Positions 2,717-16,070 of a DNA stretch of 64,000 nucleotides are shown piece by piece. This DNA comes from Alitabrizicola rongguiensis (lineage in GTDB: Bacteria; Pseudomonadota; Alphaproteobacteria; Rhodobacterales; Rhodobacteraceae), in NCBI RefSeq assembly GCF_021491355.1, contig NZ_JAKENF010000004.1, forward strand, positions 186,001-250,000. The letters are read 5' to 3'. Position numbers and translations under genes: made by a program. The first letter of the stretch is position 1, and every line of letters starts with the position of its first letter. The notes under the pieces were generated by a model. That model worked only from the letters and a program-made list of their open reading frames with translations. It made no database searches and was not told where the DNA came from.

Positions 2717-3646
2717 TCAGTCCCCCGCTTTTACATCCGCTGCGCGCCCGAAGTCTGGCGCAGATGTATCCTGTCCAGCCTCAATAATACCTCGCCGGAT
2801 CGCGCGAGTCTTGGTGAAATAGGCATGCAGGTGCTCTCCGTCGCCAAGGCGGATTGCCCGTTGCAAAGCAAAGAGTTCTTCGGTGAACCTGCCCAGGATA
2901 TCCAGCGTGGCTTCCTTGTTGGTCAGGAACACGTCGCGCCACATCGTCGGATCGCTCGCGGCGATTCGGGTAAAGTCGCGGAAGCCCGAAGCGGAATACT
3001 TGATGACCTCGGAATTCGACACGCGGCGCAGATGGTCGGCGACTCCGACCATGGTATAGGCGATCAGGTGCGGCGTATGCGACACCACGGCCAGCACCAG
3101 GTCATGGTGCGGCGCGTCCATCTCGTCGACGTTCGAGCCCATCGCTTCCCAAAGGCTGCGCAACCGGGCCGTAGCTTCGAGCGTAGATTTTTCGCAGGGC
3201 GTGAGCAGGCACCAACGGTTCTTGAACAGTGTGGCAAATCCGGACCGTGGCCCCGAGTATTCGGTCCCGGCCAACGGGTGGCCCGGCACAAAGGCCACAC
3301 CTTCTGGGATATGGGGCGAAACCGCCTCGATCACCGCCTGCTTGACCGATCCGACATCGGTCACCGTCGCACCAGGTTTCAGATGCGGCGCGATCTCTTC
3401 GGCTAGCTCGCCCATCGCGCCCACCGGTACGGCGAGCACGACAAGATCGGCGCCCTCCACCGCTTCTGCCGCAGAGGTGCAGACGCGATCACAAATGCCG
3501 ATCTCAAGCGCGACCTTTCGGGTTTCCTCGGTCTTGGCATAGCCGACGATTTCACCCGCCAGACCGCCCGCCTTCATCGCATGGGCCATCGACGAGGCAA
3601 TCAGGCCCAGCCCGATCAGGGCGACGCGGTCATAGATCGGGGCCAT
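2717..3646 (-). CDS. prephenate/arogenate dehydrogenase family protein
   Basis: 309 residues with an N-terminal Rossmann motif GLGLIASSMAHAM (about residues 12-24) followed by the TyrA helical domain, including GHPLAGTEYSGPRSG and SHTPHLIAY. The family carries out the oxidative step of tyrosine synthesis, converting prephenate to 4-hydroxyphenylpyruvate or arogenate to tyrosine with NAD(P)+. There is no ACT domain or fused chorismate mutase. Its ATG shares one base with the hisC stop codon, so the two are translationally coupled. The HisC partner may act on both imidazole-acetol phosphate and aromatic keto acids. Substrate preference is not readable here. Confidence 0.92.
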   Translation of the reverse strand: MAPIYDRVALIGLGLIASSMAHAMKAGGLAGEIVGYAKTEETRKVALEIGICDRVCTSAAEAVEGADLVVLAVPVGAMGELAEEIAPHLKPGATVTDVGSVKQAVIEAVSPHIPEGVAFVPGHPLAGTEYSGPRSGFATLFKNRWCLLTPCEKSTLEATARLRSLWEAMGSNVDEMDAPHHDLVLAVVSHTPHLIAYTMVGVADHLRRVSNSEVIKYSASGFRDFTRIAASDPTMWRDVFLTNKEATLDILGRFTEELFALQRAIRLGDGEHLHAYFTKTRAIRRGIIEAGQDTSAPDFGRAADVKAGD

Positions 3647-13382: not shown

Positions 13383-14024
13383 TCACTCCGCCGCGATGAG
13401 CATATCCTGTTCGGCGAAGACATCGTGATGGATGCCGGCATAGTCGCGGATCTTCGCGATCCGCTCTTCCGAGCAATCCATCAGCGCGGCCATCGCCACC
13501 ACCTTGCCCATCTGCTTCGGCGTGCCGACATAGCCGTGCGGCGCGTTGCCGCCGCGCTGCAGGACACGGTTCATCACCGGGTCGATCACGGCAATCGCAT
13601 CCGTGACGCCAGCCGCCATCGCGAATTCGAACGCGCCGATCATGACCTCGCTGGTGACATAGCCGATGGTGTTGCGCCCGCGGCCGGTCTTCAGGCGATT
13701 GGTGTCAACGCAGAAGCGCGTCGCCTCCCACAGGCTGGACGACCGCAGCGGCGGCTCGCCATCCATGATCGAGGAAAAGACATCGGCCAGCATGTGCGGA
13801 CCGGTCGTCTGAAGAAGGCGCATGCAGCCCACGACATGGCCTTCGTCATCGACGCTGATGACATGGGCAGGGTCCATGGCATCGAACTCGTCGATCTCCA
13901 TCCCGTCCGTAACCTTGACCTCCCAGCCGAGGCGGTCATGGAACACACGCGCCCGCAGGCGGTACATATCCTCGAGCAGCGACCGGTAGGATCCACTGTT
14001 CAGGGAATCGACAACATAGATCAT
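13383..14024 (-). CDS. acyl-homoserine-lactone synthase (LuxI family)
   Basis: 213 residues. All the invariant LuxI positions are present: R24, F28, W34, D45, D48, R69, E100 and R103. The enzyme makes an AHL signal from S-adenosylmethionine and an acyl-carrier-protein-bound chain; chain length cannot be read from sequence. It is the last of three leftward genes, after two luxR-type genes, but a 121-bp gap with a hairpin and a dyad suggests its own promoter. The ribosome-binding site is weak (GGGGG before CTAAAA-ATG). It shows no obvious truncation. Confidence 0.95.
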   Translation of the reverse strand: MIYVVDSLNSGSYRSLLEDMYRLRARVFHDRLGWEVKVTDGMEIDEFDAMDPAHVISVDDEGHVVGCMRLLQTTGPHMLADVFSSIMDGEPPLRSSSLWEATRFCVDTNRLKTGRGRNTIGYVTSEVMIGAFEFAMAAGVTDAIAVIDPVMNRVLQRGGNAPHGYVGTPKQMGKVVAMAALMDCSEERIAKIRDYAGIHHDVFAEQDMLIAAE

Positions 14025-14145: not shown

Positions 14146-14850
14146 TCAAAGCGGATAGATCAGGCCCAGGCCGATCGCCCGCCCCACTGCCTGAACGGTT
14201 GTAAGTGCGCCCAGCTTCTCGCGCGCAGAGCGCAGATGCACCTCGACCGTCCGAGGTGAAATGCTCAGGATGTCGCCAACGTCCTGCTGGGATTTTCCGG
14301 CGGCGATCCACTGCAGAACTTCACGCTCGCGCGAAGACAGGATGGGGCGCAAGAGCGGGCCGGGAACCTCACCCCCGATTCGCAGGACCGCGTCATGCAA
14401 GTGAACCGCCGCCTTCTGCAGATCGACCATGATCTGCCGGCTCAGCTTGCGCCACTCGGCCGGCGGCATTCGCGCCGTTACGCTCAGCAAACCCCGCTCG
14501 CCAAAGGCGCCCCGTATCGGAACGGTCACGCCTTGATTCGAGATGCCAAAGTCATGCGCCGACCGGAACACCGCATGAAAATTGGAGTTCCGCTCGAACC
14601 GGCTCCAGTCGACGGGGGCAAGGCTCAGGATCGACCGATGAATGGTCGGATCGACATGGTGCATCCGGTGGCTGGTGTAATGCTCTTTCCACTCAGCTCG
14701 GTAGGTCGCGTAGCCCCGTACCGTCCCGGTTGCAGGATCCATCGAGGCATAAGAGCCGTATTCGACACCGAGACGACGGCAAAGCTGGTCGATGAAACCC
14801 TCGAAGTTCTCGGTCGTGCCAGGAAGTTTGCTGAGGTCGATCAGGTCCAT
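14146..14850 (-). CDS. LuxR-family AHL-responsive regulator
   Basis: 234 residues. The N-terminal autoinducer-binding domain keeps the key ligand residues (W54, Y58, D67, P68, W82, and a Gly near 107). The C-terminal GerE-type helix-turn-helix runs from about 170 (SSREREVLQWIAAGKSQQDV ... SPRTVEVHLRSAREKLGA). It is the likely cognate receptor of the adjacent AHL synthase. Its stop is 121 bp from luxI and its start 3 bp from the stop of the upstream luxR-like gene, so the two regulators are co-transcribed. Confidence 0.93.
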   Translation of the reverse strand: MDLIDLSKLPGTTENFEGFIDQLCRRLGVEYGSYASMDPATGTVRGYATYRAEWKEHYTSHRMHHVDPTIHRSILSLAPVDWSRFERNSNFHAVFRSAHDFGISNQGVTVPIRGAFGERGLLSVTARMPPAEWRKLSRQIMVDLQKAAVHLHDAVLRIGGEVPGPLLRPILSSREREVLQWIAAGKSQQDVGDILSISPRTVEVHLRSAREKLGALTTVQAVGRAIGLGLIYPL

Positions 14851-14853
14851 CGC

Positions 14854-15468
14854 CTATTTCAGCAGCCCCTTCTGGGCAGCCAGCGAGGCCGCCTGCACCG
14901 GAGTACGCGCATCCATGCGTGCCATGGCGCTTTTCAGCCGCGCCTTCACGGCGCTTTCCGAAATCCCCAGGGCATAGGCGATCTCCTTCAGCCGCATGCC
15001 CCGAGACAAGAGCTTCAGCGCGTCGGTCTGCGCCTTCGTCAACGGCTGGTCGCTGTCCGGCTCCTGGAAGTGCGCCGCCCGCAACGTCATCTCGAGTTCG
15101 CTCAACTCGCCCGAGGTCAGTTCTCGGTCTGACCGGGCGAAATAGCCGAAGGTACGGCGCGGTCGCTCTTCGTCGGCGGTCACGCAGACCACGGCACCAT
15201 AGCGCATCCCGAACGCCGCATAGGCAGACAAGACGCCCAGCGGGTCTGGGATCGACAGCTCGCTCCACCTGCAGGCACCGTTGCGCGAGTAGATCCAGCG
15301 CATCAGCGGATCATGCAAGGCAAGGCCGTTGACCGTGTAGTGGTCGATCCATTCCTCGGAAAAGGTCGTCAGTTCTTCCTCGGGCGAGAAAAAACCCAGA
15401 CGCAATGCCGCGTAATGGCCTGCAGGGGCGATCCTACCGAAGGTATCCTTGCAATCACCGAGTCTCAT
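14854..15468 (-). CDS. LuxR-family regulator, second copy
   Basis: 204 residues, slightly short. The autoinducer domain keeps W40, Y44, D53, P54 and W68. The HTH (LTKAQTDALKLLSRGMRLKE to VQAASLAAQKGLLK) occupies residues 142-204. Its sensor domain resembles the HTH-less protein encoded divergently at 15579 more than the cognate LuxR downstream (WIDHYTVNGL...DPLMRW versus WVEFYAQNGL...DPTVRW). Whether it binds an AHL is not known. It precedes the cognate luxR by 3 bp. Confidence 0.9.
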   Translation of the reverse strand: MRLGDCKDTFGRIAPAGHYAALRLGFFSPEEELTTFSEEWIDHYTVNGLALHDPLMRWIYSRNGACRWSELSIPDPLGVLSAYAAFGMRYGAVVCVTADEERPRRTFGYFARSDRELTSGELSELEMTLRAAHFQEPDSDQPLTKAQTDALKLLSRGMRLKEIAYALGISESAVKARLKSAMARMDARTPVQAASLAAQKGLLK

Positions 15469-15495
15469 AATGGACAGGTGTTCCAGTCTGAAGTA

Positions 15496-15509
15496 TCACC
15501 GTCCGGTGA
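15496..15509. promoter_or_regulatory. inverted repeat between divergent luxR genes
   Basis: TCACCG and CGGTGA flank a 2-bp centre. The 110-bp divergent region between the two related LuxR-type genes contains this as its clearest dyad, 27 bp from one start. It is a candidate operator for a LuxR-type dimer. Confidence 0.4.
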
Positions 15510-15578
15510 GGGGTGGTCTGTTCCGTGCCGTTGCGTCTGATCCATGCGCAGTCTCAAGCCCTGTGGTTCACTTCTTAC

Positions 15579-16070
15579 ATGATCAAATCGGAAAAGATAA
15601 ATCACCAACTGCAACGTCTGGTTGAAACGTGCGACTGGCGCTTTGCCGTCGGCCTTCGCGTAAGATTCAATCACCCCACTTTGCTCTATCAGACCTATCC
15701 CGCTGCATGGGTCGAATTCTATGCGCAGAACGGCCTGCTGTTCTTCGATCCGACGGTCCGGTGGGCGATGACGCATACGGGCACGATCACCTGGGCAGAG
15801 CTCGAGCCCGGTGATACTGCGGGCGTCTTCCGCCAGGCGCGGGAGTATGGCTTGGCACACGGCATCGCCGTTTCGGTGGGCGATGGACCGATGCGGTCGA
15901 TGGGCTTCTTCACCCATGCCAATCGACCTATCACCAAGGAAGAGACTGCCGTCGCGCTTGATGTCGTGAAGACCCTTCATGACCTGACCGACGGCGTACC
16001 GGATCTCCCGGCGGAGCGGATCGCCGCGCTTCAGGCGCTTGGCGACGGTCTGAGCCAAGATAGCGCCTGA
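15579..16070 (+). CDS. LuxR-like autoinducer-binding protein lacking the HTH domain
   Basis: 163 residues from ATG 15579 (MIKSEKINHQLQRLVETCDW); an upstream in-frame start at 15513 would add 22 residues and lacks a good ribosome site. The autoinducer domain is intact (W44, Y48, D57, P58, W72). The protein stops at QALGDGLSQDSA, where LuxR proteins continue through the first HTH helix (compare E-V-L-x-x-x-A-x-G-L-S-x-x-E-I-A). Neither the same frame nor a shifted frame restores an HTH downstream. It could heterodimerise with the divergent paralogue and block it, as HTH-less TraR-like antiactivators do; that is inference. Confidence 0.8.
   Translation: MIKSEKINHQLQRLVETCDWRFAVGLRVRFNHPTLLYQTYPAAWVEFYAQNGLLFFDPTVRWAMTHTGTITWAELEPGDTAGVFRQAREYGLAHGIAVSVGDGPMRSMGFFTHANRPITKEETAVALDVVKTLHDLTDGVPDLPAERIAALQALGDGLSQDSA

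Follow-up and report, generated by a model that had tools for sequence, protein, structure and literature searches.

CerN of Cereibacter sphaeroides (RSWS8N_05815), a LuxR homologue lacking the HTH and adjoining cerM, cerR and cerI, was described in December 2024 (PMC11655674, cited here, like the other papers, from the portions of its text available). In this bacterium CerM occupies DNA when AHL is absent and reduces ctrA and motility by an indirect route; it was pulled down by GST-CerN only with AHL, and CerN together with AHL weakened CerM DNA binding in EMSA and relieved CerM in an E. coli reporter (PMC11655674). CerM is not itself blind to AHL, which on its own weakened CerM DNA binding in vitro, neither CerN nor CerM was required for AHL synthesis, and synteny with other species is, among these genes, given only for gtaR in the available portion of that paper (PMC11655674). 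TrlR of Agrobacterium, grouped with TraS in the preliminary description, also consists of an AHL-binding domain without a DNA-binding domain and forms a heteromer with a full-length LuxR protein (PMC11655674, PMC13043044). Our search of the literature on CerN/CerM quorum sensing found PMC11655674, its correction and one unrelated paper, and others may exist. In their available portions, no truncated luxR was found in the reviews of Roseobacter quorum sensing (PMC3907830, PMC3824088), a 2026 review of LuxR protein interactions mentions TrlR and not CerN (PMC13043044), nothing on HTH-less LuxR proteins was found in PMC13345283, and PMC9654057 only repeats pocket contacts.

The stretch of DNA analysed here, called the window, is 64,000 nucleotides long and contains a four-gene quorum-sensing cluster in which a synthase gene and two full-length luxR genes, each with Pfam Autoind_bind and GerE domains, are transcribed divergently from an HTH-less gene (Table 1). 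The preliminary description of this DNA had placed a complete AHL synthase in the cluster, and its Pfam match bears this out. A second autoinducer-synthase match in the window genome (G000:C7:654797-655078) is weak, at 26.5 bits against a Pfam cut-off of 24. The window shares the order cerN-cerM-cerR-cerI with the C. sphaeroides-like locus L105 (genome G057), whose CerN is 43-44% identical to that of the window. L105 is taken for C. sphaeroides 2.4.1 from its gene order and from its CerM, the sole one of 70 with F at W57, which has Q at residue 189 when counted from a 200-residue start; C. sphaeroides CerM has F at W57 (Table 2 of PMC11655674), and its Q189amb mutant needs a Q at 189 (PMC11655674). 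As both order and sequence match cerN-cerM-cerR-cerI, the window gene is read as a cerN orthologue, the product of which is, with a probability of roughly 0.8, the AHL-receiving half of a two-protein switch that takes CerM off DNA.

Table 1. Coordinates of the quorum-sensing features in the window.
Feature	Position	Strand	Basis
cerN-type gene encoding 163 aa (AHL-binding domain, HTH absent)	15579..16070	+	ORF, Pfam, alignment, AlphaFold model
CerN C-terminal tail, residues 145-163, matching HTH helix 1, then stop	16011..16067	+	model, alignment
cerM-type short full-length luxR, divergent neighbour, probable target	14854..15468	-	Pfam, alignment, profile search
cerR-type full-length luxR	14146..14850	-	Autoind_bind + GerE
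cerI-type AHL synthase	13383..14024	-	Autoind_synth 7.2e-71
cerM/cerN divergent intergenic region	15469..15578	.	motif scan

The length of the cerN product is counted from the ATG at 15579; initiation at a GTG in the same frame at 15513 would lengthen it to 185 aa, and the family alignment favours the ATG. The product matches Pfam Autoind_bind at 1.1e-15 with no further domain up to E 1, and unlike full-length LuxR regulators it has no C-terminal GerE HTH. Its pocket holds W44, Y48, D57, P58, W72 and G95, the complete set numbered W57, Y61, D70, P71, W85 and G113 in TraR, and also Y40 of the YxxxW motif. The end of the protein had been read as a first HTH helix cut short, and this reading holds, since the profile-profile alignment of CerN with the neighbouring luxR product extends through LPAERIAALQALGDGL against LTKAQTDALKLLSRGM of HTH helix 1. 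The AlphaFold model (72-row alignment, pLDDT 94.6) has the LuxR-type ligand-domain fold with a long helix at residues 120-136 and a final helix at 145-158. The best solved structures found with this model by Foldseek are LuxR-type receptors, 5l09 being first (TM 0.68), with SdiA, RhlR, CviR, QscR and TraR further among the best 50 matches. The gene was rightly described as divergently oriented to a full-length luxR, cerM; CerN and CerM have 31% identity over 102 aligned residues and 39/159 identical positions in the family alignment. No second close cerN copy was found in the window genome, where the best match beyond the two luxR neighbours has E 0.09. A frameshift or an HTH remnant downstream of cerN was rejected, as had already been claimed for the window: no HTH was found in the three same-strand frames within as much as 700 nt beyond the gene, in the window and 71 other loci, the single reported match having a non-significant E of 0.71.

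The distribution of the gene was investigated in a sample of 394 Rhodobacteraceae genomes of 393 genera, of which 184 match the CerN protein at 1e-12; these matches include full-length relatives, and the loci were therefore fetched and sorted. The short loci L002-L015 (those from cerN clusters being represented by L001 and L110-L113) and six marker stretches of G057 (L114-L119) were set aside first; of the 104 loci with a hit, 13 short ones from genomes also having a longer one were then dropped, and 91 were kept for sorting. An HTH-less CerN orthologue was present in 72 of the 91 kept loci, from 72 genomes. Pfam finds Autoind_bind in all 72 and GerE in none (E up to 0.01), and an HTH HMM built from the full-length luxR products of the fetched loci likewise detected none among them (best E 0.078). 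The autoinducer domain had been called intact on the strength of W44, Y48, D57, P58 and W72, and all five are invariant in the 72 orthologues, G95 being kept in 71. The orthologues end shortly past the segment matching HTH helix 1, in a few cases within or before it, and many end as LRxxSIxxTH. Within the genus of the window, the gene is present in 4/6 other genomes, stop-free, with 50 to 88% identity and always beside the same luxR. The two remaining genomes (87 and 99% complete) gave no match to the CerN query at E 1e-3; this query elsewhere also finds the CerM partner, and they gave neither. Beyond the family, 2/385 genomes of the class match the profile at 1e-20, and both belong to Rhodobacteraceae.

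The preliminary description had suggested asking whether orthologues in other genomes keep the same place as well as the missing domain, and 70 of the 72 do lie head-to-head with a full-length luxR. One exception, L106, is located where its contig ends, and a second contig of this genome ends with a similar luxR; the other, L061, has cerN at 2938-3441 with no cerM in the fetched stretch, its neighbours being presumably ilvH and ilvI. Inversely, a CerM partner profile (50 rows) run on the 394 family genomes gave 81 CerM-type loci in 78 genomes at 238 bits or more and next matches at 230 bits or less, the boundary being set by the gap in the listed bit scores (238.9 against 230.4). Already among the loci known with cerN were 67 of the 81, and the HTH-less gene was found in 11 of the remaining 14 and was missing in three (L172, L179, L180), so that in the fetched stretches cerN is present in 78/81 CerM-type loci from 75 genomes and 74 genera. 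None of the loci of 21 GtaR-like rows, a sample of many taken among the best matches listed, had an HTH-less gene. An AHL synthase lies on the CerM side in 59/72 cerN loci, or 60 with the window added, where the synthase falls outside the short locus L001.

Three of these 78 loci, L173, L174 and L175, have a rearranged module in which cerN and cerM share a strand, with cerN about 1 kb downstream of cerM in the first two and directly after it in the third. L111 and L112 (G004:C24 and G005:C57, same genus) have cerN-cerM-cerR without cerI in the fetched stretch, and the AHL synthase of G004 and G005 is located on another contig.

The HTH-less proteins form one side of a branch (SH-aLRT 96) in a tree of the ligand domains (163 rows), with the CerM partners on another (99); the GtaR-like rows need two changes. 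The window CerN falls on the branch of the L105 protein, apart from CerM and GtaR-like proteins, and CerR is distant from CerN. When a tree of 94 rows was given the distant CerR as outgroup the root came to lie inside the HTH-less set, which leaves a single rooted loss of the HTH unproven. CerN and CerM, which share between roughly one quarter and one third of their residues, diverge in parallel (Mantel r 0.73, none of 2000 permutations as high), a correlation that shared ancestry alone could produce.

These results bear on the nature of the partner. The preliminary description had proposed an antiactivator of the TrlR/TraS kind and a built-in brake on the quorum circuit. One form of a TrlR-like brake would have the HTH-less protein poison CerR, the canonical AHL-requiring activator, through inactive heterodimers, as TrlR does with TraR (PMC13043044). 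CerN does lie in the cluster of CerR with its pocket complete, but in the fetched stretches cerN is linked to CerM (70 rows) and not to CerR (10 rows, one of them, L110, cut by a contig end). CerR is moreover far from CerN in the tree, and among double mutants of cerN with other luxR genes in C. sphaeroides swimming was regained only with cerM (PMC11655674), all of which makes a brake on CerR unlikely. The preliminary choice of the cerM product as partner is, by analogy, probably right, as C. sphaeroides CerN binds CerM in an AHL-dependent manner and takes it off DNA (PMC11655674). The proposed mechanism is thus roughly retained, with CerN as a signal-receiving arm that would switch CerM off; the brake is not, because C. 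sphaeroides CerM works without signal (PMC11655674), and the HTH-less protein there accordingly delivers the quorum signal rather than blocks it. Still less probable is that CerN merely binds AHL as a sponge, raising the threshold with no protein partner. A complete pocket without an effector domain would suit such a role, as would L061 with its cerN lacking cerM in the fetched stretch; the presence of cerN in nearly all CerM-type loci argues against it, and so does the parallel divergence of CerN and CerM, with the same reservation about ancestry.

Selection on cerN was estimated by the method of Nei-Gojobori, giving a dN/dS of 0.127 between the window and its nearest relative and of 0.28-0.43 in three further comparisons among close relatives. 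For the nearest relative the values of CerM and CerR are 0.018 and 0.015, both are below CerN in the remaining comparisons too, and over the same four comparisons CerN has about 2 to 8 times their values; the last 24 codons of cerN are loosely conserved when the window is compared with its nearest relative. Selection on cerN is therefore clear but weaker than on its neighbours, in agreement with the earlier view of a functional receptor kept by selection. A dN/dS near 1 or a stop restricted to this strain had been named as the mark of a pseudogene, and neither was found. The idea of a decaying luxR shortened by a recent stop codon, to which the missing HTH and the faster evolution of cerN might point, is rejected in view of the 72/72 HTH-less relatives, the invariant pocket, dN/dS values of 0.13-0.43 and the lack of downstream HTH debris. 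The HTH-less feature is real and, judged by its conservation, functional.

A W57F exchange was proposed as the reason for the weaker response of CerM to AHL (PMC11655674). W57 (RhlR W68) is kept in 69/70 CerM proteins and W57F fits only 1/70, so it cannot be the general explanation and was rejected as such. The tyrosine of the YxxxW motif is described as universally conserved and as holding the lactone head group (PMC13192270). In CerM (n=70) this site is L in 52, F in 14, Y in 2, M in 1 and W in 1, and in CerN (n=72) Y in 68 and F in 4; the tyrosine is also kept in 20/21 GtaR-like and 10/10 CerR proteins. CerM without this tyrosine and CerN with it is as expected if CerN is the receptor. Two further sites, RhlR A44 and V133, were placed via alignment with RhlR. 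At the first, CerN has A in 70/72 and CerM has Y, F or H in 70/70; at the second, CerN has I, V or L in 60/72, M in 7 and F in 5, and CerM has F, Y or W in 69/70. Eleven pairs fetched later have the tyrosine in 10/11 CerN and 1/11 CerM, A at the A44 site in 11/11 CerN against Y or H in 11/11 CerM, and F or Y at the V133 site in 10/11 CerM. The eight CerM-like proteins with no cerN beside their gene in the stretch fetched, one of which (L185) is the split-contig partner of L106, all lack the tyrosine and have the same pocket, which speaks against a strict tie of this pocket to CerN. The pocket changes of CerM may have arisen once in an ancestor of all rows, and the residue counts are therefore not independent.

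An engineered RhlR, Y64F/W68F/V133F, is active without ligand, and C4-HSL fails to activate the RhlR variants A44M and A44W (PMC13192270). At the sites RhlR Y64/W68/V133 the C. sphaeroides CerM (L105) has F, F and F, with Y at A44, and the window CerM has Y/F/W/F at A44/Y64/W68/V133. CerM is thus like the triple mutant in its site Y64, mostly L or F, and its site V133, F, Y or W, and C. sphaeroides CerM also in F at W68 and in its ligand-free activity; it differs in being natural, in being bulky at A44 too and in keeping W68 in 69/70, and a causal role of these residues is putative. A bulky A44 site is not special to CerM, being F or Y in 9/21 GtaR-like rows. The site of LasR A127 is, we assume, that of RhlR V133. 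SdiA has Phe at the site matching LasR A127 (PMC13192270). RhlR A44M still bound C6-HSL (PMC13192270), so a bulky residue at A44 need not block binding. Taken together, the residues at these sites suggest a CerM whose pocket keeps it bound to DNA with no ligand present, and a sensing role that has passed to CerN.

Motifs were scanned in the 64 of 70 cerN-cerM intergenic regions that are longer than 40 nt. The published CerM site TNT(N5)AAGACA(N2)T occurs in 0/64 (shuffled mean 0.03) and the published TwTm(N6)GAC in 5/64 (shuffled mean 2.9); neither is enriched, which gives no support for autoregulation. The hexamer CAACCT, on either strand, occurs in 27 of these 64 regions, where shuffling gives a mean of 4.4, and is possibly a candidate leader or operator element. 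It starts 21-34 nt before the cerN start codon, often inside GCAACCTnAAAGCGAG, in 18/70 loci (L026, L040, L043, L044, L045, L046, L054, L062, L063, L066, L069, L075, L086, L096, L100, L103, L105 and L122), the window locus not being among them.

In the two-protein switch proposed here, CerM would sit on DNA in the absence of AHL; as AHL made by CerI accumulates, it would be bound by CerN, which would then associate with CerM, presumably through the ligand-binding domains, and remove it from the DNA of the genes it is presumed to control. The AHL-dependent interaction of CerN and CerM and the loss of DNA binding have been demonstrated in C. sphaeroides (PMC11655674), and we infer by analogy that the switch operates in the window organism too. 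Points that count against it are the faster evolution of cerN than of its neighbours with its loosely conserved tail, the lack of enrichment of the published CerM site between cerN and cerM, the two genomes of the genus with no match, the CerM-like proteins that have the same pocket and no adjacent cerN, and the effect of AHL alone on C. sphaeroides CerM. For the broader proposal we see an even chance: CerM/CerN, encountered here in 74 genera of a single family, would be a split quorum receptor of wide occurrence, in which CerM is locked in DNA binding by its remodelled pocket and sensing is handed to the HTH-less CerN, the paralogues dividing the two jobs of an ancestral protein. An apparently broken gene, of a type easily passed over as a truncated luxR, then becomes a working part, and the mechanism described for a single species becomes a common arrangement of quorum sensing in Rhodobacteraceae. 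In place of W57F, the pocket signature offers a candidate explanation, applicable across the family and directly testable, of how CerM could act in the absence of signal, and CerM/CerN would illustrate in nature how a receptor made of one protein may divide into sensor and effector.

Compared with the known systems, the window gene stands closest to CerN of C. sphaeroides, being HTH-less with a complete WYDPWG pocket, next to cerM-cerR-cerI and on the same branch; C. sphaeroides CerN is also as distant from its own CerM, with 31% identity (PMC11655674), as the window pair. The two systems differ at W57, retained in the window CerM and replaced by F in that of C. sphaeroides, and in that the function in the window is inferred. 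The label TrlR/TraS given in the preliminary description does not fit. TrlR is 88% identical to its own target, which needs AHL for DNA binding, whereas C. sphaeroides CerM is active without AHL (PMC11655674), and the window CerN, divergent from CerM and on a separate branch, is not the near-identical copy of a full-length target by which TrlR/TraS are recognised. As an orthologue of CerN the window gene belongs to a kind known since 2024 from one bacterium, and what is new is its breadth, its near-constant pairing with CerM and the pocket signature of CerM.
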